A stretch of 64,000 nt of DNA from Affinundibacterium nitidum (GTDB taxonomy: Bacteria > Pseudomonadota > Gammaproteobacteria > Burkholderiales > Burkholderiaceae_D): contig NZ_JACOFZ010000003.1 in the NCBI RefSeq assembly GCF_014284155.1, positions 62,001 to 126,000 of the forward strand, given 5' to 3'. The notes beneath the pieces are model-generated. The model ran no database searches. It was given only the letters and a program-made list of their open reading frames with translations, and was not told where the DNA came from. Below, one piece after another: positions 37,481-56,224 of the stretch. Each line of letters begins with the position of its first letter. Within the stretch, counting starts at the first letter, position 1. The position numbers and the translations under genes were made by a program.

Positions 37481-39148
37481 CTAGGTACGGCGCGTATCGC
37501 GCCTCCAGAGTGCCAACAAGAGTAATGCAGTCAGTAAATACAAAGGCCATAGTGGAACCTGTGGCATAGTCGATGCCGCATTTGCAGGCAGGCGCTGCGC
37601 AAATGTCCGTGTGGCTTGTACTTTCAATTGCCGCTGCCAACTTGGCCAAGCCTCATTTGGATAAACATAGAATGCATTATGTTTGGCTTCCTTCAATTCT
37701 GGTGCTGATAGACTGAAGTCCTGCCAGCCTGCTTGGCTCGGTCGCCATGCTGCGCACAATTGATCTATCGCTCCATCGTAGATTTTGAGAGCAAGCTTTT
37801 CAGTCTCGGCTGTTGCCACTGTTCCTTGGCTAACTCCCTGCACACAAACGACTTGTCGTTCACCGGCGATCGGCATTTTTTCATGCAATGCCCACCGCAC
37901 TTGCTCGTCTTCACTTTGATGAACTTGGTCAAGAACCTGCTGCCACCAAGCTGTCAATTTTTGGGGTGTCGCGATAGCGTGACGATGCCAATCACTAACG
38001 GCGATCCAAGCAATGCGCCCTCGCAGCCATGAACGCTGCCATAGCCAAGCTGAGCTTCCCTTTGTTTGCGGATATGCCTGCCACATAGCGCGCTTGCTTG
38101 CCGCACTTGGCGTTACCGCAAAAGCGTTCGGGCTTAAGCTCATACTGCCAAACCCACTCACATCGACCACGACCTCAGCATCCTTTGTTTGATTTACCGC
38201 TTGCAAGGCTAGCTCAAAACGCTGGTTCCAAAAGCTAGTCTGATTCGCATTGGCGCCCAACACTATCAAGGTCTTTCCTTGTGCGACTTGCGCCAATATT
38301 TTCTGCAGCGATGCTCCACTTTGCTGCTCAAGAAACGCAGCATCAGTAATCATCAAGTCCATCTTGGTGACATCAGCGATAGGTGCTTCTATGTGTTGAA
38401 TGTCTTTACCCAAACGCGTTTGCCAGTCGAGTACGGCTTGGCTTTGCCGCAGTAAATTTTGTAGCGATCGAGCATCAAATGACGATGCATCAAAACGGCC
38501 CCATACTTGCAAAGCATCAAGCGCCTTAACTTCGACAGGAATTGGCCCAGAGTCGATCAGTTGGTCGTTCTCATCAAACACCTTGGCTTGCAGAACCATA
38601 CGCTCCGCAACGGGCGCCAACCATCTTAAGCTCACGCTCGATTCTCGGCTTTTTTCCTCAACTAAGAGTACTCCATTTTCTGCCAAAAGTTGCGCACGCC
38701 AAGTACCCGTTGGTTTCATGCTTGCTGTCTCACGTTTGATACGCAATTCGAATTCGCGGCCTAGAGCCACACGAGGGTCGGAATCCAATTGCAATGCTGG
38801 TTTATTGGTGGGCACTTGCCATTGCAAACGCTTCGCCGGAATGTCATGCCACTGACTTTGACGATAGCCCTCACCTTTCAGTTGAATTTGCTGAGCGTGT
38901 TCGATTTGCAATAGCAAATTCGGGGTTACTTCCGATACTTTATCGCTATCGAGAATCAAGGTGGTAGACGCACTTTGTGGCAATTGCTTCTGTATCCACG
39001 GCTCCCATTGCTCTTGCCACAATATCGCAAGTAAACACAGAGTTGCTGACAAGACTAATGCCCTATCCAATGAGTGCACATAGCGCCTCATCGACCACCC
39101 AGTGAGCACAAGCAGAATGATACTCAGCATGCCGTTGAGCCAATTCAT
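37481..39148 (-). CDS. Membrane protein of the MoxR/DUF58 operon, last gene
   Basis: A 555-residue protein with two N-terminal membrane helices (about 5-18 and 29-46), a large periplasmic part and one C-terminal helix (VPLWPLYLLTALLLLALW). The central part includes an Ig-like region and a Rossmann-like domain (VTKMDLMITDAAFLEQQ, GKTLIVLGANANQTSFW) like the glutamine-amidotransferase-like domains of proteins seen in such operons, without recognisable catalytic residues. It overlaps the preceding gene by 4 bases, so translation is probably coupled. The exact family is not recognised; the role is inferred from context. Confidence 0.55.
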   Translation of the reverse strand: MNWLNGMLSIILLVLTGWSMRRYVHSLDRALVLSATLCLLAILWQEQWEPWIQKQLPQSASTTLILDSDKVSEVTPNLLLQIEHAQQIQLKGEGYRQSQWHDIPAKRLQWQVPTNKPALQLDSDPRVALGREFELRIKRETASMKPTGTWRAQLLAENGVLLVEEKSRESSVSLRWLAPVAERMVLQAKVFDENDQLIDSGPIPVEVKALDALQVWGRFDASSFDARSLQNLLRQSQAVLDWQTRLGKDIQHIEAPIADVTKMDLMITDAAFLEQQSGASLQKILAQVAQGKTLIVLGANANQTSFWNQRFELALQAVNQTKDAEVVVDVSGFGSMSLSPNAFAVTPSAASKRAMWQAYPQTKGSSAWLWQRSWLRGRIAWIAVSDWHRHAIATPQKLTAWWQQVLDQVHQSEDEQVRWALHEKMPIAGERQVVCVQGVSQGTVATAETEKLALKIYDGAIDQLCAAWRPSQAGWQDFSLSAPELKEAKHNAFYVYPNEAWPSWQRQLKVQATRTFAQRLPANAASTMPQVPLWPLYLLTALLLLALWRRDTRRT

Positions 39149-41256
39149 TTGCTCGCTCCTACGTTTGATTCAAGCAATAAGCCTGAGTCTTTCCATGCCT
39201 TTTGCATGCGACTTTTGTTCGCAGATTGCTCATCGAGTACACGCAGGGTCTCTGGGGCTTGCAAGAGCAAGCGCCCTTCGCCTAAAGACAAACGTAGCCA
39301 AGCCCGTAGCGGTGCGCGGCACGGCTCACATCCATCGAGTACATCTTGTACAGCGGCTTGTGCGGCCAATCTTTGCTCTTCATCTTTTAATGTTTGAGCA
39401 AACCAAGATCTTGTCGTTTTACTCCAAAGAGCTGGCAACGGTTTAGCTTGTGACAGGTCTTGTATCAATTCGCGAATCTCTAATGGAATATGATCCACAA
39501 GATTCGATGGCTTAGATTTCCAATTTCTCGCTTCCAGCACATCTCCGGTCAACCGTTTTTCTTCCTTAATTACTGGTGGCGTAAAAGCTGCTTTATGTAG
39601 ATAGATGCGGTCCGCTTGCTGTAATTGCTTAATGCCTTCTAAAGCTTTATTCTCAGGCGCTAAGGCTGTTGTGGGGTTTAAGGAGCGTAGAGATTTTTCA
39701 GCGTCCCACATGGCTGCCAGCACTTTCCGTAAAATCTTTTTAGTCGCTTCATCAAACAAGGTCGCGTTTTCCGCTTGATCATGCGCATGACCATAAGCAG
39801 CTGCCATATCGACCGGTTTATATTCACCCGCATTATGTTGATCGCCATGTTCCTCGTGTTCACTTTCAGCTTCTTCGCCAAACAAAGTTGACTCTTCGCC
39901 TAAGAATCGGCCATAACGACGACGCAAGGCCGCCTGATCATTTGCAATGGTTTCACTACGAGCACGAATGGCATCAGGATTTATCTTTGAATTAGCTTTC
40001 ATATCGGCCACCAATTGCTCAGTGTCGATAATAATTTGTCGCTGGCTGCGCAGTGATTCTGGCTTCACCAAGATCGGCAAGACCGAGGTCTGCTCTTCTT
40101 TCGCTTCCGGTGAAGGTAAGCGCACTGTGTAAGTTGCGGAAGTGGTGATATGCGGCGCGGGCATCGCATTGTCGCTGGCTCGCACAAAGAAATACAATTC
40201 ATCGCCAGCTTCCATGCCAAGTTCGTTCAGTGTCCACTGCTTCTGCCAAATTCGAACGCGCGGATCAGTCCCTTGCGGCAAGGCGACTTCTTTATCACTA
40301 AAGCGAATATTCTCGCCACTTCCACGGGCTAATGTTAAATGCAAAGTAGCGTTACTGATTTTATAGTCATCGGCTACGCGCACGGCGATGGTGAATTGTT
40401 TAGTGTCGACACTCAGCACTTGCAGCATCTCGACTGGCTTTTGTATCTCAACTATAGGCGCCTGATCCAACTTCACTTTCAAGTTCCAACGTTGCGCCTT
40501 AGGGTCTCCGCTCCACGTCCAAAATACGCTCTCGCTCGCCTCCCAACTGACACAGTGATTTCCGCTCTTCTCTTTTGCTTCCGGATAAAGGCTGAGCGTT
40601 TGTCCATCACTCAAACGAATTTCTTGGCTCATGCTTGATGTATTTCCAAGTTGCGATTGCTGTACGCACCATGTGATTAGACTGTGTTCAGGAATATTCA
40701 ACTCTTTCGCTTCGGATTCGAAAGCAGCTATGCCGGTGTAGGCTGGCGGCACGACTTTCAGACGCAAATCTGACGGGGCAATTGCGACACTCGACCGCAC
40801 TGGAGTCGAAGTCTTTGAAAATACTGGCGTGTGGAAAAACTGCATCCAGACAATTCCGGCCAACAATAAATTAAACACTAAGGCTATGCGCCACGTCCAT
40901 CCGAATTGGTGCAATTGCTGCGCCATGAGCCGAATACGTTCTTTATTCAAAACCTTCTCTAGGCGTTGCCATAAACGTTGCTGCTGCAGACGTGCGATGC
41001 TAGTCTCCGCCTGCCATAGTAATTGGCTACTATCTTCAAGCTCTGCACACGAGGCATTCAGAAAACTTACCAAATGGTGTTCGACATGTCTATGCCATCG
41101 CCACCCATCAATAGCAAAACCAACCAGCAAGGCAACGAGCACAGGCCAGTATTGGGCCACTACCCAAGGAGCTGCAAACGCGATGTACAGTAAGGCACGC
41201 TGACGCAGCACAGCAAAAAATAGCGATGAACGGAGATGCTTAAGTGCGTCGTGCAT
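39145..41256 (-). CDS. DUF4175-like large membrane protein
   Basis: A 703-residue protein with membrane helices near residues 20-50 and at about 120-140 (WRIALVFNLLLAGIVWMQFF), and a long periplasmic remainder. The central stretch contains an immunoglobulin-like segment (LKVVPPAYTGI, FTIAVRVADDYKISNATLHLTL), a region with Glu-rich helices (SESEHEEHGDQHNAGEY, His/Glu-rich) and a C-terminal helical part. The layout matches DUF4175 proteins found next to MoxR and DUF58 genes. It overlaps the preceding gene by 17 bases. The role is unknown; it probably forms part of a membrane complex with the neighbouring gene products. Confidence 0.6.
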   Translation of the reverse strand: MHDALKHLRSSLFFAVLRQRALLYIAFAAPWVVAQYWPVLVALLVGFAIDGWRWHRHVEHHLVSFLNASCAELEDSSQLLWQAETSIARLQQQRLWQRLEKVLNKERIRLMAQQLHQFGWTWRIALVFNLLLAGIVWMQFFHTPVFSKTSTPVRSSVAIAPSDLRLKVVPPAYTGIAAFESEAKELNIPEHSLITWCVQQSQLGNTSSMSQEIRLSDGQTLSLYPEAKEKSGNHCVSWEASESVFWTWSGDPKAQRWNLKVKLDQAPIVEIQKPVEMLQVLSVDTKQFTIAVRVADDYKISNATLHLTLARGSGENIRFSDKEVALPQGTDPRVRIWQKQWTLNELGMEAGDELYFFVRASDNAMPAPHITTSATYTVRLPSPEAKEEQTSVLPILVKPESLRSQRQIIIDTEQLVADMKANSKINPDAIRARSETIANDQAALRRRYGRFLGEESTLFGEEAESEHEEHGDQHNAGEYKPVDMAAAYGHAHDQAENATLFDEATKKILRKVLAAMWDAEKSLRSLNPTTALAPENKALEGIKQLQQADRIYLHKAAFTPPVIKEEKRLTGDVLEARNWKSKPSNLVDHIPLEIRELIQDLSQAKPLPALWSKTTRSWFAQTLKDEEQRLAAQAAVQDVLDGCEPCRAPLRAWLRLSLGEGRLLLQAPETLRVLDEQSANKSRMQKAWKDSGLLLESNVGASK

Positions 41257-42358
41257 GATTCACTATCCGTTCTAAGCAAAACAAACTCAGCAAGGCAAAA
41301 ATCCAATAACGATCTAAATTCGCTTTCTTTTCAACTGGAAAGTCGCTCACACTACTGATTTCTGCGGTCGATGCAGGCACCGACATCGCTTGCAGGGGAA
41401 ACCCTTGAGGTCGGTTTTGCAAACTGCGCCAAGCTTCAAATAACCGTTTGGCCCCAGCCATGTCATACAGTGGCCAATCGACCTTTGTCGACTTCAGCCA
41501 CACTCGCCCTTGAGAACTATCGAAAGTTTGAAGTCCTAGCTCACTCAACACTTCCGTCTCTTTCGCCTCTTTGCTAGATGACGAGAATGCTGAAGCCTCA
41601 CTGACCCACCACAAAGGCGCTCGCCATTCCGATGTGGGTGCCAAGGCGCTTTCCCAAATCACTAGGCTTGCAGGTATATTCCTATCCCATTGCTCTCGCA
41701 CCTCGAAATGCAATTGGCCGTCGAGCGTTTGTTCAAATACTTTGAACCATGCCTGCCAATCAGAGAAGCGCGCACTCTTTACGACGATAGGAATAGTGAC
41801 TTGGGCGGATTTATCTTGTCGCGAACTTGGTGCAACTCTCAGCTCAAGTGCATGTTCAAACTTTGGTAAAGACGCACTCATTTGGCCATCTTTTGCGCTC
41901 GCCAACACCAGCCAACGACTGCCGATCTTCCACTCGTGCTGATGCAGCGCAAGCCACGAAAGTATCTGATCGGTTTGAACCGAACAGCTAGGCGAGGAAC
42001 AAACATTCTCAATTGTGGCCGATGACCATTTTGTGCCTTCCTCCTTTGCTAACTGGGTCAATTGCTGTTGCACCCAATTCTTATCTGCGTTCTGTGAAAT
42101 AAAAATCGTATCGCTACGACCACGGTAAAAAATACCTGCAACCAGCGCTAACAAACATACCAGGATCAGCAGTCGCACTGCTAATAACAGCAGCTGACGC
42201 CAACGCCATACAGTTTGTAGACGCGGATCTGTCTGTGCCAAAAAGCGTGCTGTCGCCAAGAACTTCGCCGACAGTTGTTGTCGACGCTGTCTATGCCACC
42301 AAACGGGCAAAGCCAATAAGGGAAGACCTACCCACCACCAAGTAAATAGCAGACTCAT
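41240..42358 (-). CDS. BatA-like N-terminal-domain membrane protein
   Basis: A 372-residue protein with the BatA N-terminal two-helix module: LLFTWWWVGLPLLALPVWWHRQRRQ (about 1-25) and LLLLAVRLLILVCLLALVAGIF (about 55-77). A periplasmic domain follows and a final membrane helix (YWIFALLSLFCLERIV). The middle has no MIDAS-type von Willebrand motif that I can see. BatA-domain proteins typically accompany MoxR and DUF58 genes, as here. It overlaps the DUF58 gene by 4 bases. Confidence 0.65.
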   Translation of the reverse strand: MSLLFTWWWVGLPLLALPVWWHRQRRQQLSAKFLATARFLAQTDPRLQTVWRWRQLLLLAVRLLILVCLLALVAGIFYRGRSDTIFISQNADKNWVQQQLTQLAKEEGTKWSSATIENVCSSPSCSVQTDQILSWLALHQHEWKIGSRWLVLASAKDGQMSASLPKFEHALELRVAPSSRQDKSAQVTIPIVVKSARFSDWQAWFKVFEQTLDGQLHFEVREQWDRNIPASLVIWESALAPTSEWRAPLWWVSEASAFSSSSKEAKETEVLSELGLQTFDSSQGRVWLKSTKVDWPLYDMAGAKRLFEAWRSLQNRPQGFPLQAMSVPASTAEISSVSDFPVEKKANLDRYWIFALLSLFCLERIVNHARRT

Positions 42359-43239
42359 ACGCGTCCCGCCCGACGTAAGAAGGCACGTATGGTCTTCGCT
42401 GGATCATCTTCAATGCAGGCTTCTAAATAGGGAATGTCTGTGCTACGGCAGCTCGCGCGCAATTGATCAAAGTGAGCTTGAGACCTTTGCAAATACGCGT
42501 CTTTTGCATTACGGTCAAAGGCGACCCAATGCGCTGGCGCCTCAGGATCACAATAACTGATATCCCCTGAAAAATCGGCCTTAACTTCGGCTTCGGTACG
42601 CAAGCACAAGGCTCTCACATCATGCTGCATCCGGCGCAAACGCATTAGTGCTTCGGTGGTCGCCGAAGCCGCATCGATAAAATCACCAATAGCAAATACT
42701 ACGCTCGGTGCTCGTGCAAAATGCAGATGTGAACGTATCGTATCGCTATCGGGTAATTCACCGCCCGCTTCGATCAGATTCAAACGTGACATCAAGCGCT
42801 GCAACTGGCGTGGACCACGCGAGGCAGGAGTGTAATCAATACGCCCATGATGAGCGATTAATAAACCGAAGGCATCACCTTGTCGTTGGGCCACTGCGGC
42901 AAGACAAGCTATTACAGCACGCGCATAGGCTAACTTGGAAACATGAGGAAAGCGCTGGCTTAATTCATTCATCGACGCACTAGCATCTAACCAAAACCAC
43001 ACCGCCACGTGGCTGTCGCGCTCAGCTTCACGCACATAGTATCGATCGTTACGTGCTAGCAGCTTCCAATCGACTCGACGCCATTCGTCGCCCGGCGCAT
43101 AGGCACGGTACTCCGAAAACTCGACACCTGCACCGCGTTCGCGACCTGCTTGCAGACCATGACCCAAACCCGCCAAGACATGACGGACGATGAGTTCAAG
43201 ATCTTTACTGTGAGCCAGGAGGGTGGCGATATCAAGCAT
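42355..43239 (-). CDS. DUF58 domain protein
   Basis: A 294-residue soluble protein with the DUF58 signature VEFSEYRAYAPGDEWRRVDWKLLARNDRYYVREAERD (about 41-77), then a von Willebrand-like stretch VAVWFWLDASASMNE (about 79-93) in which D-x-S-x-S provides a metal-binding site. DUF58 proteins are the usual partner of MoxR ATPases, in a chaperone or metal-insertion role. It follows the MoxR gene with a 43-base gap. ATG 43239 is well placed. Confidence 0.82.
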   Translation of the reverse strand: MLDIATLLAHSKDLELIVRHVLAGLGHGLQAGRERGAGVEFSEYRAYAPGDEWRRVDWKLLARNDRYYVREAERDSHVAVWFWLDASASMNELSQRFPHVSKLAYARAVIACLAAVAQRQGDAFGLLIAHHGRIDYTPASRGPRQLQRLMSRLNLIEAGGELPDSDTIRSHLHFARAPSVVFAIGDFIDAASATTEALMRLRRMQHDVRALCLRTEAEVKADFSGDISYCDPEAPAHWVAFDRNAKDAYLQRSQAHFDQLRASCRSTDIPYLEACIEDDPAKTIRAFLRRAGRV

Positions 43240-43282
43240 AATGGGATGAGGCTATCAGCTGCGATTTCAGCGGTTAAAGACT

Positions 43283-44281
43283 TTAAGCAACTTGAATCTG
43301 TTCACGAATCGCCAGCAAAATGTCGGCTATTGCAACGCCATCTGCCTCTGCTTCAAAATTGCGTAATACTCGATGCGCTAATACCGGCAAAAGCATGGCG
43401 CCAATGTCATCACGCGTTACCGCCAAACGCCCTTGCATAAAGGCTCTGGCTTTTGCAGCCAACACCAATGCTTGCCCAGCGCGTGGCCCCGCACCCCAGC
43501 CTACCTGCTGGCGTACACGCTCCACCTGAGTTTCTTGTGGACGTGTCGCTCGAATCAAGCGCGTGGCATAACGCAAGAGATGTTCGCCAATTTCGATTTC
43601 GCGTACAAGCTTCTGTAAACGCACGAGGCTCGCGACATCCATCGCAGCCGTCGCTTCGCCGATACCCGCGTTGGTGGTACGCGAGACCATGGCAATCTCT
43701 TCTTCCTCAGTGGGATATCCTACATCGATGCGTAAAAGAAATCGATCTAGCTGCGCCTCTGGCAATGGATAGGTGCCAGCTTGCTCGATCGGATTTTGTG
43801 TGGCTAACACAAAGAAGGGCTGCGGTAGACGATGCGTCTGTCCTGCAAATGTCACCGAACGCTCTTGCATCGCCTCAAGCAAAGCTGATTGTGTTTTCGG
43901 CGGAGCTCGATTAATTTCGTCTGCCAACAACACTTGGGTGAATACAGGCCCAGGCTGAAAACGAAACACGCGTTGGCGTGTCGTCGTATCTTCTTCTAAT
44001 ATCTCCGTACCAACAATGTCAGAAGGCATGAGGTCGGGCGTGAATTGAACGCGTCGAAATTGTAAGTCAGTTGCCTGCGCCAAAGATTTCACCAATAAAG
44101 TTTTACCGAGTCCAGGTACCCCTTCAAGCAAAGCATGGCCACCCGCAATCAGGCAAATGACTAAGGAATCAATCACATCTTTCTGACCGACGATCACCTG
44201 AGACATGCTGGCCGTAAGGCCAGAAAGTTTTTGACCTAGGTCGGCAATTTCTTGTTCATTCCAACTGGCTTGCACGTTCAT
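43283..44281 (-). CDS. MoxR-family AAA+ ATPase
   Basis: A 332-residue AAA+ ATPase with Walker A EGVPGLGKTLL (about 56-65), Walker B VLLADEINRAPPKTQSALLEAMQE (about 118-141), sensor 1 ATQNPIEQAGTYPLPEAQLDRF (about 165-186) and a C-terminal lid. MoxR ATPases act as chaperones that help assemble or activate protein complexes, usually with DUF58 and BatA-type proteins; that cluster is complete here. The start codon ATG overlaps the stop of the DUF4159 gene by 4 bases. Confidence 0.92.
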   Translation of the reverse strand: MNVQASWNEQEIADLGQKLSGLTASMSQVIVGQKDVIDSLVICLIAGGHALLEGVPGLGKTLLVKSLAQATDLQFRRVQFTPDLMPSDIVGTEILEEDTTTRQRVFRFQPGPVFTQVLLADEINRAPPKTQSALLEAMQERSVTFAGQTHRLPQPFFVLATQNPIEQAGTYPLPEAQLDRFLLRIDVGYPTEEEEIAMVSRTTNAGIGEATAAMDVASLVRLQKLVREIEIGEHLLRYATRLIRATRPQETQVERVRQQVGWGAGPRAGQALVLAAKARAFMQGRLAVTRDDIGAMLLPVLAHRVLRNFEAEADGVAIADILLAIREQIQVA

Positions 44282-44898
44282 GCTCCTAATGCGTACTGAA
44301 TAATATTGACGGCGAAACGGGTGTTATCAATCGCCAAAAATCGTTTATTGCGAAAGTCATAGTCCCATTCGCAACCGTAGTCCTTATTGCTATACAAGAC
44401 ACGAATACGGCCATCGATTTCGATAGCTTTTAAATAGTCGTGAACCAAATCATCACCCCAACCGTTAAGCTCAACGCTGGTATTCGGTGGGCCGTCAAAT
44501 TTAAAGAAACAAGAATACAAAGGATGATTGTTAGGAATTTTCTTGAGTGCTTTGATCCCAAAAATCTTGATCATCTCGGCTTCAAACGATTTTGCAAACA
44601 GACCATCGATATCATGATTACAGTCGTCCACAAACAAGAAACCACCGCCCTTCACATAGCGTTCCAAATTTTTACGTTCTTGTGAATTGAACTGCACAAG
44701 CTTGTGTCCCGCCAAATAACAGAACGGCGACTCCAGCATTTTGGGATCGGACAGGGCGATCACACGCTCAACCGTATCCACGCGTAAAGTCGTGTACTCC
44801 ACTAAGGAGTTCAGCACATTACTGGGCATACGGATGTCCACATCCCAGTCACCTGAGTCGTACATCAAACGCGTGAAATAAAAATCGTATCGGCTCAT
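44278..44898 (-). CDS. DUF4159 domain protein
   Basis: A 206-residue soluble protein matching DUF4159: it opens YDFYFTRLMYDSGDWDVDIRMPSNVLNSLVEYTTL and contains a Rossmann-like region with CYLAGHKLVQFNSQERKNLERYVKGGGFLFVDDCNHD, the glutamine-amidotransferase-like fold of this family. No signal peptide or membrane segment is present, so it is predicted to be cytosolic. Function unknown; its position between the tldE and moxR genes ties the two halves of the operon. Confidence 0.78.
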   Translation of the reverse strand: MSRYDFYFTRLMYDSGDWDVDIRMPSNVLNSLVEYTTLRVDTVERVIALSDPKMLESPFCYLAGHKLVQFNSQERKNLERYVKGGGFLFVDDCNHDIDGLFAKSFEAEMIKIFGIKALKKIPNNHPLYSCFFKFDGPPNTSVELNGWGDDLVHDYLKAIEIDGRIRVLYSNKDYGCEWDYDFRNKRFLAIDNTRFAVNIIQYALGA

Positions 44899-44911
44899 GC
44901 TTACATTTTTG

Positions 44912-44938
44912 CGACAGGCAGATAAAGTCTGCCTGTCG
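44912..44938. repeat. Perfect 11-bp stem-loop between tldE (copy 2) and the DUF4159 gene
   Basis: CGACAGGCAGA (44912-44922) pairs with TCTGCCTGTCG (44928-44938) across a 5-base loop. It is inside the operon, 7 bases after the tldE stop in the transcript. On the minus strand it is followed by CAAAAA, not Ts, so it is not a classical terminator; it may be an RNA-stability or processing element. Confidence 0.7.
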
Positions 44939-44945
44939 ACTTGGA

Positions 44946-46274
44946 TTACACTGCGTCAGACAAAGAAGTGAAGTTGAAATCACGTAGTTTCATTGCTGGA
45001 ACAACCATCTTACGGCCGTCACCAAAGACTTGGGTCTTGCCCAGGTCTTCAATATTATTCAACATCGTTACTGGGCTTTCATTGAAACGGAAGTTCTTCA
45101 CTGGATGTTTCACTTTGCCATTCTCAATATAGAAGGTGCCGTCGCGTGTCAAACCGGTTACCAATAAAGACTGTGGGTCAACCGAGCGGATATACCAAGT
45201 GCGTGTCACCAAGATGCCTTTTTTGGTCGAAGCGATCAGCTCTTCCGTTGACTTATCGCCACCCGACATGATGGTATTCCCCGCACGACCGCGGGCAGCA
45301 ACGCCCTGTTTTTTGGCCCAGAAGTTGGAATACTGCAGAGTTTCAATCTTACCGTTCTTGACCATGGACATTTTTTCACGGGGCAGCATAGAACCAGCGT
45401 CCCATGGCGCCACTGGTGCATCTTTATCCCACGGATCAGTCCAAATATTGACTTGTTCATCAAACATTTTCTCGCCGAGACGATTGCCACCACCTTTTTT
45501 GGACAAGAAACTACGACCTTCATCAGCAGAACGCGCATCGAAAGCATTGAACATGAAACTGAGAATGTCGGAAGAAGCGGCTGGCTCCAACACCACAGTA
45601 TAGCGACCTGGCTCTAATGCTTTTGCATCGACAGAGCGCAATGCTTTTTCGATTGCCACTTCAGACGCTTCACGAGGATCAAACAAACGCGCATCATTCG
45701 CAGAACGCGTTACCCAACCAGAACCGCGACCATCTTCGGTACGCGCGGTGCAACTGAAGCTCAGATTCGTCGATTCTTGATATCCAAACACGCCATTCGA
45801 ATTCGCAATCACTTCAAAGCCCACGGTATCAAGGAAGAATCCTGCTGTAATGAGCTTATTCTTTTTCGCTAAACTGATACTTTGCGCGGCAACCTCTGCG
45901 CGATACTCAGGGTCAATCGCCGCGGTTTCTTTGAAGTAGGTCTGCGATGCTTTGAATTCCTGCTTACCCACCGCTGGCATAAACTCTGGGTTTTCCGGCG
46001 CCAAGCGTGCAATATCTTCGGCGCGACGGACTGCACGTTCCAAAGACTTATCGTCAAATTCATTGATGGTGGCTGTACCTTGGCGCTTTCCAAAAGCAAC
46101 ACTTACTGATAACTGCGTATCTTGATTCAAACCCGCAGTCGAGACACTGTTTTGCGCAGTACGAATATTGCCAGCACGTGTACCTTGAATCGACACCCGA
46201 CACTCATCCGCACGCGACAACGCCATCACGCGATCGCAGATACGTTTTGCTTCTTCTTGACTCATTTGTTTCAT
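44946..46274 (-). CDS. TldE/PmbA-family protein, copy 2
   Basis: A 442-residue protein of the TldE/PmbA family, the non-catalytic partner of TldD in a heterodimeric protease. It has the family fold (TINEFDDKSLERAVRRAEDIARLAPENPEFMP, ANSNGVFGYQESTNLSFSC, LEPGRYTVVLEPAASSDIL) and lacks the HExxxH zinc motif. No signal peptide is visible. It is closely similar to the other TldE copy across its whole length, for example in FIENGK-type GTFYIENGK and KNFRFNESPVTMLNNIE. It follows tldD copy 2 by 78 bases, so the pair should be made together. Confidence 0.85.
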   Translation of the reverse strand: MKQMSQEEAKRICDRVMALSRADECRVSIQGTRAGNIRTAQNSVSTAGLNQDTQLSVSVAFGKRQGTATINEFDDKSLERAVRRAEDIARLAPENPEFMPAVGKQEFKASQTYFKETAAIDPEYRAEVAAQSISLAKKNKLITAGFFLDTVGFEVIANSNGVFGYQESTNLSFSCTARTEDGRGSGWVTRSANDARLFDPREASEVAIEKALRSVDAKALEPGRYTVVLEPAASSDILSFMFNAFDARSADEGRSFLSKKGGGNRLGEKMFDEQVNIWTDPWDKDAPVAPWDAGSMLPREKMSMVKNGKIETLQYSNFWAKKQGVAARGRAGNTIMSGGDKSTEELIASTKKGILVTRTWYIRSVDPQSLLVTGLTRDGTFYIENGKVKHPVKNFRFNESPVTMLNNIEDLGKTQVFGDGRKMVVPAMKLRDFNFTSLSDAV

Positions 46275-46352
46275 CTTATTTTCCTTCTATTATTCGACAC
46301 AGGAAAAACTCATATGTATTCGCCCAAGATCAACTCAGATGACCAAAGACCA

Positions 46353-47990
46353 TCATCCAATCTTACGCGCCGTATTAATCACATTGATGCCATTGAAGCG
46401 AGCTGTGCTCGATCCATGGGAAACTGCGCTGACCTGACTTGGCTGACCTTTACCGTCAAAGAATGAACCACCCATGCGCCAATCTTTGTCATCACAAATT
46501 GCGCTACAGCTATTCCAGAATTCCTGGGTATTCGATTGATATGCGACGTCTTCGACCGGACCAATAATCTTGCCGTTCTTGATTTCATAGAACAGTTGGC
46601 CACCAAACTGGAAGTTGTAACGTTGTTGGTCAATGGAGTAAGAGCCGCGTCCAAGGATGTAAATACCCTTCTTCACATCCTTAATCATCTCGTCTGGACT
46701 CAGTGGCGCTTTACCAGCAGCCAAAGACACATTCGGCATACGTTGAAATTGCACACTACTCCAACTATCAGCGTAGGAGCAGCCATGCGATTCTTTTTCA
46801 TCAATCAAATGTGCTTGATCGCGCGTCGCTTGGTAGTTGACCAAAACACCGTCTTTAATAATGTCCCAACGCTTGCTAGGAACCCCTTCATCGTCATAAC
46901 CAACCGCGCCCAAGGAACCTGTCGTGGTTTTATCAGCGAAGAAATTAACGCGATCTGACCCAAATTTAAAGTTCTTAGAACGCCATTTGTCGAGCGTTGC
47001 AAAACTCGTTCCCGCATAGTTCGCCTCGTAGCCGAGTACGCGATCCAATTCTGTCGGATGGCCAACCGATTCATGGATTGTCAAGAACAAATGCTCTGGG
47101 CTCAAGACTAAATCATACTTGCCAGGTTCGACTGATTTCGCGCTCAACTTTTCACGCGCTTGACGCCCACTTTCACGCGCTTCTTCAATCAAATCAACCG
47201 AGCGGTTGTACAAGGTCGTGACGCCACCTGCCGCAGCAACTTTATCTTTGGGATTTGCATCGAAGAATTCAAAGCCCATGCCGACCGGTGAGGATAAGCT
47301 TTCACGACTGCGGAACTTATTAGTCGCCTTATCGACCGCTGTCGCCGTCATTGGCGCCCACAGACGATGGATATCTTGATCGATGTACGAACCATCGGTA
47401 GAAGCAAAATATTTTTCTTGATTCACTTGGAACAAGTTTGACTGCATGAAGCTGGCACCGGCCTCTAAACCTGCACGATTGGCAGCGATCAACATATCCG
47501 CTTTTTCTTTGACTGGAATTTTGCGCCAATCTTTGGTGAACGGTGTAGTCCAGCTCACCTCACCTAAAGCTTTTACTGGTGCCAAGATCAAGGGTTCGGT
47601 TTGCAACTTGGCATTTGCTTTAGCGATCGCCACTGCTTGTTTAGCGATATTTGCCACGGCATCGACTGTCATATCGTTGGTCGAAGCGAAACCATAGGCA
47701 CCGCCTGCAATCACGCGGACACCGACTCCCATCGATTCAGAATTGACGATGTTCTCAACCCGCGTATCACGTGTGGTGATGAATTGGTTGATATAGCGAC
47801 CAATGCGCACGTCACAATAGCTCGCTCCCGCTTTGGTCGCAGCGTTCATTGCGGCATCTGCTAAAGATTTCTTAAAAGCTTTAGCGACCGGATTCATCAA
47901 TTCCTCAGCGGCAATTGCATTACCAAATACTGGCACTAACAAGGTGCCTGCCGCATAGCTACTGATCTTTAAAAAGTCACGTCTTTCCAT
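46353..47990 (-). CDS. TldD-family metalloprotease with twin-arginine signal, copy 2
   Basis: A 545-residue TldD-family zinc protease. The start at 47990 begins MERRDFLKISSYAAGTLLVPVFG, with the twin-arginine motif RRDFLK and an AIAAEE cleavage region, so it is probably exported folded; AGGAG lies just upstream. The zinc motif HESVGH (HExxxH) is present in FLTIHESVGHPTELDRVLGYEANYAGTSF. The core also includes DDEGVPSKRWDIIKDGVLVNYQATRDQ, SHGCSYADSWSSVQFQRMPN and GGQLFYEIKNGKI. TldD/TldE cleaves peptides and processes some ribosomal antimicrobial peptides, but the usual TldD is cytosolic. The longer frame from 48062 has no signal and is less likely. Confidence 0.88.
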   Translation of the reverse strand: MERRDFLKISSYAAGTLLVPVFGNAIAAEELMNPVAKAFKKSLADAAMNAATKAGASYCDVRIGRYINQFITTRDTRVENIVNSESMGVGVRVIAGGAYGFASTNDMTVDAVANIAKQAVAIAKANAKLQTEPLILAPVKALGEVSWTTPFTKDWRKIPVKEKADMLIAANRAGLEAGASFMQSNLFQVNQEKYFASTDGSYIDQDIHRLWAPMTATAVDKATNKFRSRESLSSPVGMGFEFFDANPKDKVAAAGGVTTLYNRSVDLIEEARESGRQAREKLSAKSVEPGKYDLVLSPEHLFLTIHESVGHPTELDRVLGYEANYAGTSFATLDKWRSKNFKFGSDRVNFFADKTTTGSLGAVGYDDEGVPSKRWDIIKDGVLVNYQATRDQAHLIDEKESHGCSYADSWSSVQFQRMPNVSLAAGKAPLSPDEMIKDVKKGIYILGRGSYSIDQQRYNFQFGGQLFYEIKNGKIIGPVEDVAYQSNTQEFWNSCSAICDDKDWRMGGSFFDGKGQPSQVSAVSHGSSTARFNGINVINTARKIG

Positions 47991-48045
47991 CTTTGCTCCT
48001 GATTTTGCTTTACACGGTAAGGCCCATCTCATTTCAAGGTCGAGT

Positions 48046-48080
48046 AATTCAGCAAACATCATGAAGATATTTGCTGAATT
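48046..48080. repeat. 11-bp stem-loop after tldE (copy 1)
   Basis: AATTCAGCAAA (48046-48056) pairs with TTTGCTGAATT (48070-48080), loop of 13 bases. It lies about 12 bases past the stop of tldE copy 1 and upstream of tldD copy 2. It mirrors the stem-loop after tldE copy 2, though with unrelated sequence and lower GC. Confidence 0.6.
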
Positions 48081-48091
48081 ATTTTCTTCGA

Positions 48092-49426
48092 TTAAACAGC
48101 GTCCGACAGTGAGGTGAAATTGAAATCTCTGACCTTCATTGGCGGAATCAACATTTGATAAGGGACTTCATCACCAGCGATGACCACAGGCTTACCAATT
48201 TCTTCAATATTATTGAGCATGGTTACAGGGCTTTCGTTGAAACGGAAGTTCTTCACCGGATACATGATTTTGCCGTTCTCGATATAGAACGTGCCGTCAC
48301 GCGTTAAACCCGTCAATAAGACAGACTGTGGATCGACCATACGAATGTACCAAGTTCGCGTCACCAAAATCCCTTTTTTGGTATTGGCGATCAGCTCAGC
48401 GGTAGTCTTATCAGTACCGCCCATGATCATGTTGCCATGTCCAGCGCGCATAGCGACTTTCTGCTTCTGCGCCCAGTAACGAGAATATTCGAGGGAATTG
48501 ACTCGTCCATTCTTAATCACTTCGGTACGCTCACGTGGCAACATCGAGCCGTCCCATGGCAACACCGCTACATCTGGATTCCAAGGATCTGCCCAGATAT
48601 TCACTTGTTCATCAAAAAGCTTTTCGCCCAAACGATTACCGCCACCTTTTTTCGATAAAAAGCTACGGCCTTCATCTGCTGAGCGTGCATCGAAACCACC
48701 GAGCATATTACCGATCAAATCAGAAGTGGCCGCGGGTTCTAAGATGACGGTATAACGACCCGGCTCGAGAGCTTTCGCTTCCATTGAACGCAAGGCTTTT
48801 TCAATTGCGACGTCGGCCGCTTCCCGTGCATCAAAACGATTTGCATCGCCGATGGAGCGTTTCACCCAACCTGAACCACGGCCATCTTCGGTACGCACGG
48901 TGCAGGTAAAGTCCAAGCCAGTTTCGCGTTGATAACCAAATACACCGTTAGAGTTGGCGATAGTCGAGAACGAGGTCACATCTGTGAAAAAACCTGCAGC
49001 CACCAAGTTTTTCTTACGGCAGGCTTCAATCGAATATGCCGCCACTTGTGCACGGAATTCTGGATCGATGTCAGCGGTCTTTTGGATAAAAGTTGGCGTT
49101 TCTTTGTAGCTCTGTTTGCCCACTGCTGGCATGAACTCAGGGTTTTCTGGCGCCAATCGTGCCAAATCCTCAGCACGTCGCACTACCTTTTCCAAGGATT
49201 TATCGTCAAATTCATTGATGGTGGCAATCCCTTGTTTCTTGCCGAAAGCAACCGCCACTACCATTTGCGTATCGGCGACCACACCTGAAGTCGACACCGC
49301 ATTTCGAGCGAAACGAATATTGCCTGTACGACTACCACCGATTTGGACGTTACACTCATCTGCTTTTGAGAACGACATCACTTTATCGCAGATGCTCTTT
49401 GCTTCTTCTTGCGTTAAATGTTTCAT
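48092..49426 (-). CDS. TldE/PmbA-family protein, copy 1
   Basis: A 444-residue TldE-type protein, a close paralogue of the copy at 44946-46274 (same TINEFDDKSLE..VRRAED.ARLAPENPEFMPAVGKQ block and the same C-terminal KVRDFNFTSLSDAV). It has no HExxxH and no signal peptide. It lies 11 bases after tldD copy 1, indicating co-translation and a heterodimer. The main differences from copy 2 are in the middle region (FFTDVTSFSTIANSNG) and around residue 415 (AGDEVPYQML). Substrate unknown. Confidence 0.85.
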   Translation of the reverse strand: MKHLTQEEAKSICDKVMSFSKADECNVQIGGSRTGNIRFARNAVSTSGVVADTQMVVAVAFGKKQGIATINEFDDKSLEKVVRRAEDLARLAPENPEFMPAVGKQSYKETPTFIQKTADIDPEFRAQVAAYSIEACRKKNLVAAGFFTDVTSFSTIANSNGVFGYQRETGLDFTCTVRTEDGRGSGWVKRSIGDANRFDAREAADVAIEKALRSMEAKALEPGRYTVILEPAATSDLIGNMLGGFDARSADEGRSFLSKKGGGNRLGEKLFDEQVNIWADPWNPDVAVLPWDGSMLPRERTEVIKNGRVNSLEYSRYWAQKQKVAMRAGHGNMIMGGTDKTTAELIANTKKGILVTRTWYIRMVDPQSVLLTGLTRDGTFYIENGKIMYPVKNFRFNESPVTMLNNIEEIGKPVVIAGDEVPYQMLIPPMKVRDFNFTSLSDAV

Positions 49427-49437
49427 GATGGATTTCC

Positions 49438-51075
49438 TTAGCCGATTTTACGTGCAGTGTTGATCACATTAATACCGTTAAAGCGCGTGGTACTAGAACC
49501 ATGCGAAACGGCGCTCGATTGAGAAGGTTGGCCCTTACCATCAAAGAAGGAACCACCCATGCGCCAATCACGCTCGTCACAAGTTGCGCTGCAAGCATTC
49601 CAGAATTCTTGTGTATTTGATTGGTAAGCAACGTCTTCCAACTGTTCACCAATTTTGCCGTTCTTAATTTCAAAGAACATTTGGCCACCAAACTGGAAGT
49701 TGTAGCGTTGTTGATCGATAGAGAAAGAACCCTCACCGACGATGTAAATACCCTTCTTCACATCTTTGACTAATTCGTCTGGTGTCAAAGGCTTTTTACC
49801 TGCGGCCAAAGAGATATTCGGCATGCGCTGAAATTGCACACTGCTCCAGTTATCGGCGTAAGAACAACCGTGCGATTCATTTTGACCGATCATATGCACT
49901 TGATCGCGGGTCGCCTGGTAATTGACCAAAATACCATCTTTAATGATGTCCCATTGTTTGGTCTTAACGCCTTCATCGTCATAGCCTACGGCACCCAAGG
50001 AACCTGGTACGACTTTATCCGCGATGATGTTCACCTTGTCGGAACCGTACTTGAATTTTTTGGATTCCCATTTATCAATCGTGGCGAAACTAGTGCCCGC
50101 GAAATTCGCTTCGTATCCCAAAACACGATCAAGCTCAGTTGGATGCCCAACCGATTCGTGAATCGTCAACCACATATGCTCTGGACTTAAAACCAAATCA
50201 TACTTCCCAGGGACAACAGATTTGGCAGTTAATTTTTGCTTAGCACTCTTACCGCAAGCGCGAGCGTCTTCAATCAAGTCGTAGGAATTTTTGTAGAGTG
50301 TAGCAACACCACCTGCCGCTTTGACTTTATCCTCAGGACGCGCATCCAGATATTCATAGCCACGACCTACTGGTGCGGATAAACCTTGGCGGGTGCGGAA
50401 CTTATTAGTCTTCTTATCAACCGCAGTGGCGGCGATTGGCATCCATAAACGATGCACATCTTGGTCAATATAGGAGCCATCAGTGGAAGCGAAGTATTTC
50501 TGTTGATTGACTTGGAACATGACGGACTGCATGAAGTTCGCGCCGCCTTCCATGCCAGCATTATTGGCCGCGATCAACAAGTCGACTTTCTCTTTGATCG
50601 GTACTGTACGCCAGTCTTTCTTAATCGGTGTCACCCAGCTTACTTCACCTACGCCTTTAACGGGCGCCAAGCGGACCGGCTCCGTTTGCAACTTAGCATT
50701 CGCCATCGCAATCGCCACAGCTTGGCGCGCGGCCGCTGCCACGCCATCAGGAGACATATCATTGGTCGCGGAAAAACCGTAAGCGCCCTTGGCGATAACA
50801 CGAATACCGACACCCGCCGATTCTGTGTTAGCGACATTTTCCACGTTCAAATCACGTGTAGAAATGAATTGATTCAAATAGCGACCAATACGAACGTCAC
50901 AATAGCTCGCACCAGCACTGGTGGCAGCATTCAATGCGGTATCTGCAAGTGCTTTACGAAACTGGTTAGAAACCGGTTTCAATAGCTCATCTGCCGTAAT
51001 TGCACGCGCATATGCTGGCAATAGGAAAGTGCCTAATGCGGCACCGCTCAAATTAAGAAAGTCACGTCGTTCCAT
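49438..51075 (-). CDS. TldD-family metalloprotease with twin-arginine signal, copy 1
   Basis: A 545-residue TldD-type zinc protease, first gene of the operon and a close paralogue of copy 2. It starts MERRDFLNLSGAALGTFLLPAYARA with the twin-arginine RRDFLN and a hydrophobic stretch; the AGGAGAC upstream favours 51075 (spacing 5) over ATG 51078. HExxxH is intact (LTIHESVGHPTELDRVLGYEANFAGTSF). Conserved blocks shared with copy 2 include YDVRIGR-type CDVRIGRY, YADNWSSVQFQRMPNIS and AYQSNTQEFWNACSATCDERDWRMGGSFFDGKGQPSQ. Export to the periplasm is inferred from the signal. Confidence 0.88.
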   Translation of the reverse strand: MERRDFLNLSGAALGTFLLPAYARAITADELLKPVSNQFRKALADTALNAATSAGASYCDVRIGRYLNQFISTRDLNVENVANTESAGVGIRVIAKGAYGFSATNDMSPDGVAAAARQAVAIAMANAKLQTEPVRLAPVKGVGEVSWVTPIKKDWRTVPIKEKVDLLIAANNAGMEGGANFMQSVMFQVNQQKYFASTDGSYIDQDVHRLWMPIAATAVDKKTNKFRTRQGLSAPVGRGYEYLDARPEDKVKAAGGVATLYKNSYDLIEDARACGKSAKQKLTAKSVVPGKYDLVLSPEHMWLTIHESVGHPTELDRVLGYEANFAGTSFATIDKWESKKFKYGSDKVNIIADKVVPGSLGAVGYDDEGVKTKQWDIIKDGILVNYQATRDQVHMIGQNESHGCSYADNWSSVQFQRMPNISLAAGKKPLTPDELVKDVKKGIYIVGEGSFSIDQQRYNFQFGGQMFFEIKNGKIGEQLEDVAYQSNTQEFWNACSATCDERDWRMGGSFFDGKGQPSQSSAVSHGSSTTRFNGINVINTARKIG

Positions 51076-51346: not shown

Positions 51347-54300
51347 TTAGGCGCGACCGTGATAGACATCGCGCGCAAATTGCTCAAATTGTGCCAGTGG
51401 CAATGGCTTACTGTACAGATAGCCTTGATAGGCGTGACATCCTTGCTCTGCGAGGAAGACTTGCTGCTCGGGAGTTTCAACTCCCTCAGCAATAACGGCG
51501 AGGCCCAAACTCTCAGCCAACACAATCACCATTTTGGAAATCGCCGCATCATTCGGATCGACCAAAATATCGCGCACAAAGCTTTGATCAATCTTCAGCT
51601 GATCGAGTGGGAGTCGCTTCAAATAGGATAATGAAGAATAACCAGTGCCAAAATCATCGAGTGAAAAACCAACACCAACCTCTTTCAGTCGACTCATTTT
51701 TTTGATGACATCCTCAATGTTTGCAATCGAGAAACCTTCTGTTAACTCAAGCTTCAAACGCAAAGGATTGGCCTGAGTCAAATCAAGTATGTCGGTCACC
51801 TGTTCGACAAAATTCTTTTGATGAAACTGGCTCGGGCTCACATTTACCGCAATCACCAGATCTTTAAACTCATCTTGCTCTTTCCAGGTGGCGATTTGGT
51901 TGGTGGCGGTATGCAAAACCCAATACCCTAAAATGGTAATTAAGCCGGTCTCTTCAGCCAAGGGAATAAACTCAGCAGGAGATATCATGCCGCGACTTGG
52001 ATGATTCCAGCGAATCAACACCTCAGCACCAAATAATTTTCCATCGTCAGTCAGCTGCGCCTGGTAATACAGTTCAAACTGATCACTTAACATCGCATCG
52101 CGCAAATCTTCTTCGAGCGCAACACGCTGTGACACTAAAATCTGCATTTTGGGATCGAAGAAACGTATCGTATTGCGTCCCGCCGCTTTGGCTTGGTACA
52201 TCGCCAAATCCGCCCGTTTAAGGGGTTCAGCAATGGTCTCAACTTTCTCACCAAACAGAGTAACGCCAATACTAGGCGAACTATGATGTTCATTGACGCC
52301 AAGCCAATAGGTTTGGTTTAACTCAGACAAAATTTTGATGGCAACCACTTCAGCTTGATTTGCAGCATCAAATGGATTTTCTTCTAAATCTTCCAACATC
52401 ACCACAAACTCATCACCGCCTAGACGCGCTACGGTATCTCCCTCGCGAGTGCAACGCGAAATACGCTCGGCAACCTGTTGCAATAAGAGATCGCCATGAT
52501 CATGGCCCAAGGTATCATTGAGCGTCTTAAAGTTATCGAGATCGATAAATAGAAGCGCACCTTTCCGCTTATGCCTATTACCGGCAGCAAGCGCTTGTTC
52601 CAATCTATCTAACAATAATCGTCGATTTGGTAATTGCGTAAGCGGGTCATAAAAAGCGAGGTTACGAATCTCATCTTCGGCTGCTTTCCGTAGTGTGATG
52701 TCATTAAACGTACCGACAAAATGGGTGGTCGACCCCGCCTCATCTTTGACGCTAGAAATATTAATCCAGGCGTGAAATTCCCCTCCGCCTTTCCTGCTAT
52801 CCATCACTTCGCCTTGCCATGCACCACGATCAGAGATACTGAGTAACATCTCTTCAAACAGAGCATCTTGACGGAAATCTGCGTTCAAGAAATGAGGTGG
52901 CTTACCCACCAACTCTTCTGATGAGTAGCCCGTAATCAAATTAAAAGACTGATTAGTGCGAAGGATATTCCAATCTGCGTCGGTAACGAACATTCCCTCT
53001 TGCGACTCAAACGCAGTCGCTGCAATCCGGCGCGATTCCTCGCTGCGTTTAAACTCGGTGACATCCCGCCACGCAATGTAGATCGATGGAGCGCCATCGA
53101 ATTCGATCAAGGTTCCCTGGCCAATGACATCAATGGCTGAGCCATCCAATTTTACAAATTTCAACTCATAGCTTTGATCCGGCGCGCCCAACTCTCCGAT
53201 GCTCGGCACACGATTCTTCAAAATGTACTGATAGTCAGGGTGAATCACTTCTGTGATCGGTTTACCGACCAGTTGGTCTGCTGAGGTCGCACCTAACATA
53301 CGAATGGCGGCCGCATTAACGTAAATGAAACGGCCTTTGCGATGCACATTAATGCCTTCAGGAGACCATTCAACTAAAGTACGATGACGTTCTTCACTCG
53401 CATGCAGCGCTGCCTCCACTCGTTTTCTCTCGGAAATGTCGCGCATTGTGCCTTGCAAAAACTGCCGGCCATCAAGTTCAACTCGGTTTAGCAAAATCTC
53501 CGCGTCAAAAATCTCCCCAGTATGCAATCGCAGGTGCAACCACTCGAATGATACTTCGCCCTGCTCTTGCGCAATTTGGATCTTGTTATCCAAGGCGACA
53601 AACGAGTCCTCACCATTTCTTTGCATGGGTGGAGACAACTCAGCGGGGTGCCGACCGATCAAATCTTCTCTGTCTCGAGCACCAAAGATCGCCACCGCAG
53701 CGGGATTACAATCAATTACCCGATTTGGATCGAGGACGATCACCGCACTGGCGGTAGCGTTAAATAGTGTAAGGTGTTGAACCTCAGAGCGGCGCAGTTC
53801 TTCGGTACGTTGAGCGACGGTCTCTTCAAGAGTTTTTTGCGAATTTTGAAGGGCTTCAATCATCGCGTTAAAAGCGGAAGTTAAGACTCGAATTTCACGC
53901 GGCTCACTCGCATCTACATTGGCCCTAACGTTTCGCTGCCCGTCCTTTAATTGTTGCGCGACGACTTCGAGCGCATGCAAACTCGCGGTTAAGCGTCGCG
54001 ACGCGAAATGGATCAGGACCAAAGCAAGAAAGGTAATTAAAACGCCAGCCGCAAGCAAAATATTGGCTTGCTCATTTAAATTTTCAAGGACTGCTGATTT
54101 TTTCGAATAGTTCACCATGGTCCAAGTTTGTTCTGGCCCGAGTTGAACATTGCGATAGACGACAATCAGTTTTTCACCAAGTTGATTGGTTTGCTCTAGT
54201 GTGCCTTGAAATCCAGCTAGAACGCGCTGGTTCGGCGTAAAGAAATATTGCTTAGCATCGACCTTAGGAAAACTCGTAATCAACACGCCGTTTTGATCAA

Positions 54301-54952: not shown

Positions 54953-54997
54953 GTTTTTGGGTACTTACTCTCCGGCTAATTTACACAAAATGAGCGA

Positions 54998-55996: not shown

Positions 55997-56224
55997 AAAA
56001 GCTTTATTTAGTATTAAGGATGACGCCCGTGCTGAAGTAGCAGGGGTTTTGACGTGCGTGTAAAGGACATCGCTGTGGGCAGGATTATACCGTTCAGGCT
56101 GCCTCAAAAGTGCCGTGTCTGTTGCATTTTGACGCACAACAAAGCTTCTTTTGGGAAATATTTTATTGACGGCAATCCTGAAAGCCCGCGATACTTAAAT
56201 TCCTATAGCGAAGGCGACACTTTT

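Follow-up and report, generated by a model that had tools for sequence, protein, structure and literature searches.

Twin-arginine-signal TldD proteases, their TldE partners and a MoxR-DUF58 membrane module share a conserved operon in Affinundibacterium nitidum and other Pseudomonadota

Results

TldD/TldE is known as a cytosolic peptidase; for the majority of MoxR-DUF58 membrane modules, to our knowledge, a role has yet to be assigned. In the window examined here, a 64,000-nucleotide (nt) stretch of the Affinundibacterium nitidum genome (contig NZ_JACOFZ010000003.1, positions 62,001 to 126,000), the two are brought together in an operon of ten genes, in which two tandem tldD-tldE pairs are followed by genes for a DUF4159 protein, a MoxR ATPase, a DUF58 protein, a BatA-like membrane protein, a membrane protein termed here D4175-like, and a membrane-anchored protein termed 'amt'. 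The linkage of these genes is very well supported, and it is accompanied by a strong pattern of export signals, with a twin-arginine translocation (Tat) signal on TldD and none on TldE. We propose, with moderate confidence, that a Tat-exported TldD-TldE metalloprotease, possibly together with DUF4159, is attended by a MoxR-DUF58 machine anchored in the membrane, which probably sees to its assembly or metal loading; it is likely that the operon proteins form one physical machine.

A DUF4159 search of genome contigs returned at least 594 relatives, and the linkage counts given next rest on the best 80 loci, all from Pseudomonadota by record title except one doubtful Bacillus label, while the export-signal counts further below cover all loci fetched (designated L); some genomes are probably represented twice among these (L071 and L154 have contigs of equal length), and assignment to Burkholderiales followed the record titles or, for L121, the family code. 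The doubtful record (L079) is titled Bacillus subtilis SK7B5 and carries a Stenotrophomonas-like operon, probably through contamination or a wrong label. In each of the 74 loci with at least 4 kb of upstream sequence, tldD and tldE lie ahead of DUF4159 and share its strand, and moxR, DUF58 and the D4175-like gene follow it in all 71 loci with at least 5.5 kb downstream; the downstream filter missed moxR in five of these (L024, L034, L035, L038 and L039), where it was seen in another reading of the locus. The amt gene is likewise present in 71/71. BatA, which diverges fast, was detected in 62, and among the nine misses is a seven-locus Alteromonas/Colwellia-type cluster that resembles BatA by its N-terminus. 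Flanking open reading frames (ORFs) of at least 110 amino acids (aa) fell into 197 clusters, of which nine mix Burkholderiales with other orders, none spanning more than five loci, and the 14 largest are confined to Burkholderiales. As no other flanking family is widely common to the loci, these genes constitute the unit, and as such the operon ties TldD/TldE to a MoxR-DUF58 module in several proteobacterial orders. A preliminary description of this DNA had allowed that the linkage might not be conserved elsewhere; the co-occurrence check in related genomes finds that it is.

A sample of 299 Pseudomonadota genomes (designated G; at least 90% complete) yielded DUF4159 in 90, as a short form (open frame of 225-299 aa) in 11 and in a longer frame (at least 578 aa) in 79. 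The operon TldD profile (A1, E<=1e-100) recovered 17 genes scoring over 980 bits. They fall in precisely the 11 short-form genomes, each on the same contig as DUF4159 and within about 8 kb of it. The D4175-like profile (A5, E<=1e-10) exceeded 500 bits in the same 11 and gave one partial match elsewhere (G079, 46 bits); operon TldD, short DUF4159 and the D4175-like protein hence occupy an identical set of 11/299 genomes. By family code these represent seven families, two outside the window's class, and two genomes of the window's own family (G157 and G262) have none of the three markers. The sole other A1 match (459 bits) belongs to a signal-less TldD/TldE pair at G166:C6:4061379-4064171 (L167), which scores highest of all TldDs outside the operon in this sample; it was considered as a counter-example and rejected, as the pair has no signal, the module is unlinked, and no other operon gene occurs in the 17 kb read. 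Where the surroundings of long-frame DUF4159 were read, in 23 of the 79 genomes, moxR and DUF58 adjoin it in 23/23 and tldD/tldE in 0/23, and that part of the module is therefore not made for TldD alone.

In a class-wide draw DUF4159 was matched in 8 of 276 genomes, seven of them above cut-off: three are of the operon type, four (G372, G477, G513 and G527) encode distant short DUF4159 proteins with no tldD in the stretches read, and one lies below cut-off. G513 and G527 carry three and two such distant proteins, respectively (L140, L141, L143-L145, L148-L152), with no tldD nearby. Plasmid searches returned two records for DUF4159 (best 28.7% identity) and two for operon TldD (E<=1e-60; best 39.4% identity), none of them close, and we therefore see no sign of plasmid spread. 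The Brevundimonas loci L060 and L083 have one more operon-type tldD, encoded on the other strand immediately past the operon end; in L083 it bears an RR signal.

Every one of the 143 operon TldD proteins with a start inside its locus bears an RR (Tat) signal; this total combines 138 of 139 found by anchor with five bearing HExIGH for HExVGH, with L015, L050 and L073 cut at the locus end. An earlier count of 126/140 missed proteins with cut starts or under a strict hydropathy threshold, and five short loci were dropped in the recount, four being present as longer loci and one (L137) being the window itself. In alignment A1, R-R-x-F is invariant in 19/19 rows and is followed by a hydrophobic stretch with a mostly AxA-like end (judged by eye, uncounted). 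The C-terminal Cys, C505, is invariant in the same 19 rows and HEx[VI]GH occurs in 146/146 operon TldDs. TldE presents the opposite picture, with a signal in 0/129 (all 129 extend to where the domain begins, and 128 have a Met at that point) and HE(2-3)H in 0/129. The A. nitidum genome has a TatC gene and encodes, elsewhere, two further PmbA/TldD-domain proteins with no visible signal. As TldE is signal-less and TldD, judging by the E. coli proteins, is expected to need it, the most economical view is that TldE would be carried out by TldD, probably leaving the cell interior on TldD's signal. The preliminary description spoke of two exported pairs: the export signal belongs to the TldD members alone, and the phrase would be apt only if TldE travels with TldD, a co-export that the asymmetry of the signals renders directly testable.

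In the D4175-like protein, N-terminal membrane helices lead into a large domain that is periplasmic by charge. Across 83 aligned proteins (the window's included), a loop matching residues 456-498 of the window's protein is 12.8% His versus 1.3% elsewhere and is the richer in 83/83, the number of loop His ranging from 3 to 18; H490 and H492 (HxH) are invariant in all 83, and C643 and C646 (CxxC) are found in 79. Its densest 45-aa stretch holds a mean of 6.5 His, compared with 1.3 to 3.8 in the other operon families. The DUF4175-like protein of G477, from a module without TldD, has neither a His-rich loop nor a CxxC. On these grounds, metal delivery or assembly is favoured as the service that the module renders to a metalloprotease; metal delivery or loading for TldD is a reasoned guess, and the loop is a concrete reason to test it.

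Between orders, operon DUF4159 keeps 73-78% identity to the window's protein, versus 22-30% for the D4175-like protein; a 97% identical DUF4159 occurs in an Oxalobacteraceae metagenome-assembled genome. A hydrophobic N-terminal segment, in several cases with RR, is present in 41/42 operon DUF4159 proteins outside Burkholderiales. Within Burkholderiales the upstream open frame is shorter than 20 aa in 34/48, and one of the 48 (L015, doubtful) has an upstream hydrophobic stretch, which does not resemble a signal fused to the protein. Two DUF4159 proteins lack the anchor motif; of these, L120 shows a segment resembling a signal and L031 does not. Long-frame proteins have a helix ahead of DUF4159 whose charges point in-to-out in 19/22 (two ties, one opposite), mostly with an AxA-like end; L123 was left out (wrong frame), and the helix of L164, one of the 19, is very weak. 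From the signals in other orders and the in-to-out helices, the domain looks to be periplasmic in general; it has lost its own signal here, and in the window lineage it may ride with TldD-TldE or sit in the cytoplasm instead. A search of solved structures with profile A2 recovered a single relative, Hoch_4089 (PDB 4i66; E 3.5e-12), in which two stretches that never vary in the operon type, DDCNHDIDG and ELNGWGDDLVH, are not conserved. The Cys of the first stretch, likewise invariant in the operon type, was considered as a catalytic nucleophile and rejected; 4i66 does not have it, and we therefore claim no enzyme activity for DUF4159.

The ORF list places all ten genes on the minus strand from 51105 (better 51075) down to 37481, in the places and order first described (Table 1). 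In transcription order the gaps are 11, 29 (101 with the tldD2 start at 47990), 78, 47 and 43 nt, and the overlapping junctions measure 4, 4, 17 and 4 nt. The tldD1 ORF is open from GTG 51105, and ATG 51075 (MERRDFL), with AGGAG 5 nt upstream, is the better start; the tldD2 ORF is open from 48062, and the MERRDF start at 47990 matches relatives. Pfam bears out the family calls for the four TldD/TldE proteins, DUF4159, MoxR and DUF58, and the BatA-like protein, below the Pfam cut-off (23.0 versus 25.9 bits), passes the NCBIfam two_anch model (28.8 versus 23.05). That model implies two N-terminal anchors, and relatives have a C-terminal helix. The names 'DUF4175-like' and 'amidotransferase-like' did not fare as well, since at E<=0.001 neither Pfam nor NCBIfam matches these two proteins of the window, and relatives match weakly; both labels are weak. 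PF13779 (DUF4175) gave no match to the window protein at that threshold and none in its genome; of 19 relatives, three match it when E is allowed up to 0.1, the best at 1.2e-15. In 2/8 operon genomes searched (G121 and G024) the operon protein exceeds the PF13779 cut-off, at 31 bits; DUF4175 proper occurs elsewhere in the genome in the 13 long-frame genomes searched. Relatives of amt show weak Ig-like, DUF7408 and ThuA matches (ThuA in 1/21, E 0.0049; BatD also in 1/21, E 0.04), and nothing significant was returned by its profile against the PDB.

Table 1. The operon genes and an intergenic hairpin, in window coordinates.
Feature	Coordinates	Strand	Evidence
tldD1, Tat-signal TldD metalloprotease, first pair	49438..51075	-	Three PmbA/TldD Pfam domains above cut-off; RRxF and HExxxH invariant in alignment A1; PDB relative 5nj5 TldD
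tldE1, partner of TldE/PmbA type lacking signal peptide and HExxxH	48092..49426	-	Three PmbA/TldD Pfam models above cut-off
tldD2, second Tat-signal TldD	46353..47990	-	Three PmbA/TldD Pfam models above cut-off; alignment A1; second-position TldD clade in tree
tldE2, second TldE-type partner	44946..46274	-	Three PmbA/TldD Pfam models above cut-off; tree
Strong hairpin in the tldE2-DUF4159 gap	44911..44940	-	Fold -20 kcal/mol, z -5.49
Stand-alone DUF4159 protein, signal peptide absent here	44278..44898	-	Pfam PF13709, 168.8 bits (cut-off 25.9); solved relative 4i66
MoxR AAA+ ATPase, Walker A GVPGLGKT	43283..44281	-	Pfam AAA_3, 218 bits; PDB relative 2r44
DUF58 protein, DASAS like a metal ion-dependent adhesion site (MIDAS)	42355..43239	-	Pfam DUF58, 106 bits
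BatA-like membrane protein	41240..42358	-	NCBIfam TIGR02226; alignment A6; hydropathy; no DxSxS
D4175-like membrane protein, His-rich loop (HxH) and CxxC	39145..41256	-	Alignments, residue counts
'amt', membrane-anchored protein	37481..39148	-	No Pfam match at E<=0.001

By the preliminary description, a strong promoter and terminator between tldE and DUF4159 would have told against its proposal. No coding-strand intrinsic terminator lies there, and the promoter-like site within tldE2 (45082-45054, 9/12 match) is at chance level. In the scan, 13 promoter-like sites were found versus 22.7 expected, and 22 terminator-like sites versus 21.5, with no excess over shuffles in either case. The hairpin in the gap (11 bp) was considered as an intrinsic terminator and rejected because it has no U tract. 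In the nearest relative (L007) an inverted repeat of like size and different sequence can be read in the same gap, which measures 0-20 nt in 22/46 Burkholderiales loci with the start codon as picked by script. An Rfam search of the window gave no match, and a tRNA search found none. Upstream, on the same strand, the operon is flanked by an EAL/GGDEF sensor and a PfkB kinase, and downstream by two proteins without a Pfam match and an amidohydrolase. The wider upstream region (51347-61671) holds signalling genes: a dCache-HAMP-PAS-GGDEF-EAL protein, the PfkB kinase, a large hybrid histidine kinase of CHASE-PAS type and a GGDEF-containing response regulator.

The TldD and TldE trees, which took in 30 of the 80 loci plus the window, group the Burkholderiales first-position copies together and the second-position copies together (support of 93/92 for tldD1, 98/85 for tldD2, 94/72 for tldE1 and 99/96 for tldE2), and the tandem pair therefore fits a single duplication. 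The Undibacterium TldDs lie nearest to those of the window, which with the 97% identical DUF4159 puts the organism near Oxalobacteraceae. In Lysobacteraceae there was a separate duplication, of tldD alone.

Discussion

It is reasonable to postulate that TldD folds in the cytoplasm, binds signal-less TldE there, and takes this partner along as a passenger when it exits by the Tat pathway. DUF4159 would act beside them in the periplasm, here probably as a further passenger if not from the cytoplasm. By hydropathy and charge the BatA-like, D4175-like and amt proteins are predicted to sit in the inner membrane with large domains projecting into the periplasm, and MoxR and DUF58 would act from the cytoplasmic side. 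The likeliest service of this apparatus would be to complete the assembly of TldD and load it with metal. Zinc, or a different metal, could be held by the D4175-like protein through its His-rich loop, HxH and CxxC, and a conformational change could be driven by the MoxR-DUF58 ATPase, by analogy with MoxR/von Willebrand factor A (VWA) pairs in metal insertion. The exported protease would then cut periplasmic peptides or proteins, and the tandem pair would amount to two such proteases in Burkholderiales. A more exacting version, in which TldD, TldE and DUF4159 form a single Tat cargo on the TldD signal and an ATP-driven MoxR-DUF58 complex metallates the protease in the periplasm via the His-rich membrane protein, strikes us as rather unlikely to hold in full; if true, cytoplasmic ATP would control protease activation across the membrane.

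The earlier suggestion that the membrane module serves an exported protease fits, and is sharpened here; MoxR-DUF58 beside DUF4159 also exists without TldD. A number of further observations weigh against a protease that the module loads with metal. Tat substrates usually take up their metal before export, which sits awkwardly with loading in the periplasm. In the window's protein the loop is only modestly rich, with 5 His among 43 residues, and the contrast in the loop comes from one TldD-free genome, G477. FWxxC around the C-terminal Cys of TldD is found in 143/146, the three misses being a frame of L065 and a pair of frames of L035; DxSxS is found in only 44/76 DUF58 and Walker A in 68/79 MoxR reading frames, these frames being unchecked singly. 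The topology of the membrane proteins was derived from hydropathy and charge only. Last, the TldD-free long-frame loci imply that the basic job of MoxR and DUF58 needs no TldD.

These same long-frame loci are where an independent envelope-maintenance machine resembling Rhizobium RL3499-RL3502, with TldD-TldE as its periplasmic protease, would find its footing, the MoxR side passing damaged or misassembled envelope proteins or peptides to TldD-TldE for destruction. Morphology and envelope defects are reported for RL3499-RL3502 (Vanderlinde 2011, by its title). The RL3499-RL3502 genes presumably encode MoxR, DUF58 and a BatA-DUF4159 fusion. A TldD that looks exported would suit such a machine; the His-rich loop and CxxC, however, would be superfluous for it, and the RL3499-RL3502 gene content is presumed. 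We consider this account possible, if only tentatively so.

An improbable alternative is that the genes are merely co-regulated for the state of the envelope and form no single machine. The links among them do consist of genomic context together with one RNA-seq remark, but against mere co-regulation stand an order kept in seven families, exact co-occurrence, the pattern of export signals and the His-loop contrast. Cytosolic TldD/E matures microcin B17, and maturation by TldD-TldE, in a like manner, of one secreted peptide or small protein as its dedicated substrate would draw on an activity known for the family and could explain two duplicated pairs as serving two peptides; against it stands the lack of any flanking family widely common between orders, in a survey whose ORF length limit misses smaller peptides, and we hold it to be quite improbable. 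Action of the operon TldDs on DNA gyrase in the cytoplasm, as a remark in a Stenotrophomonas maltophilia paper implies and as the historical E. coli tldD/pmbA phenotype cited there (PMC7688217) would favour, is scarcely credible given the RR signal in 143/143 and the separate signal-less PmbA/TldD-domain proteins of the same genome, and we would caution against calling these operon genes gyrase modulators.

Comparison with known systems

The operon is a new combination of known parts that is barely described in the literature searched. No paper was found for DUF4159 and TldD together, a search for TldD with twin-arginine returned only an unrelated paper, and two other papers with TldD and MoxR, in the passages that name them, gave them as separate items in protein or transcript lists and described no operon. 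The S. maltophilia article (PMC7688217) lists an operon, NIPOLPBK_01784-01792, that comprises two TldD, one putative protease, one MoxR-like ATPase, one membrane protein and three hypothetical proteins; it is called uncharacterised, some of its genes are lowered in biofilms by RNA-seq, and its TldD is interpreted as an inhibitor of gyrase. Going by description rather than sequence, it is very likely the Lysobacteraceae version of the operon (two tldD, one tldE).

E. coli TldD/TldE (PmbA; PDB 5nj5) resembles the pairs described here in its PmbA/TldD domains, with HExxxH and Cys in TldD and no HExxxH in TldE; the window TldD differs in its Tat signal, its MoxR operon and the extra signal-less PmbA/TldD-domain proteins of the genome. 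With the long-frame loci, and with RL3499-RL3502 by its presumed gene content, the operon shares MoxR and DUF58 beside DUF4159. In the long-frame loci, however, DUF4159 lies in a long membrane protein (mostly at least 880 aa), and both TldD/TldE and a D4175-like match are absent in 23/23. The Bat operon (BatABCDE) comprises BatA and BatB with a VWA MIDAS, BatC, BatD and BatE, and the window operon does not fit this description: DxSxS occurs in 0/65 BatA-like proteins, and neither BatD nor BatE appears among the Pfam or NCBIfam matches of the ten operon proteins. The Walker A motif of MoxR and the DASAS of DUF58 do place it among MoxR-VWA modules. Mg-chelatase I/D is a MoxR/VWA-type metal-insertion pair. 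Metal insertion by the MoxR/VWA pair NorQD is described in PMC13036017. With such pairs the operon shares a MoxR-type AAA+ protein, a VWA-type partner and a possible metal target; here, the putative target would be an exported protease, and the pair is joined by extra membrane proteins with predicted periplasmic domains.

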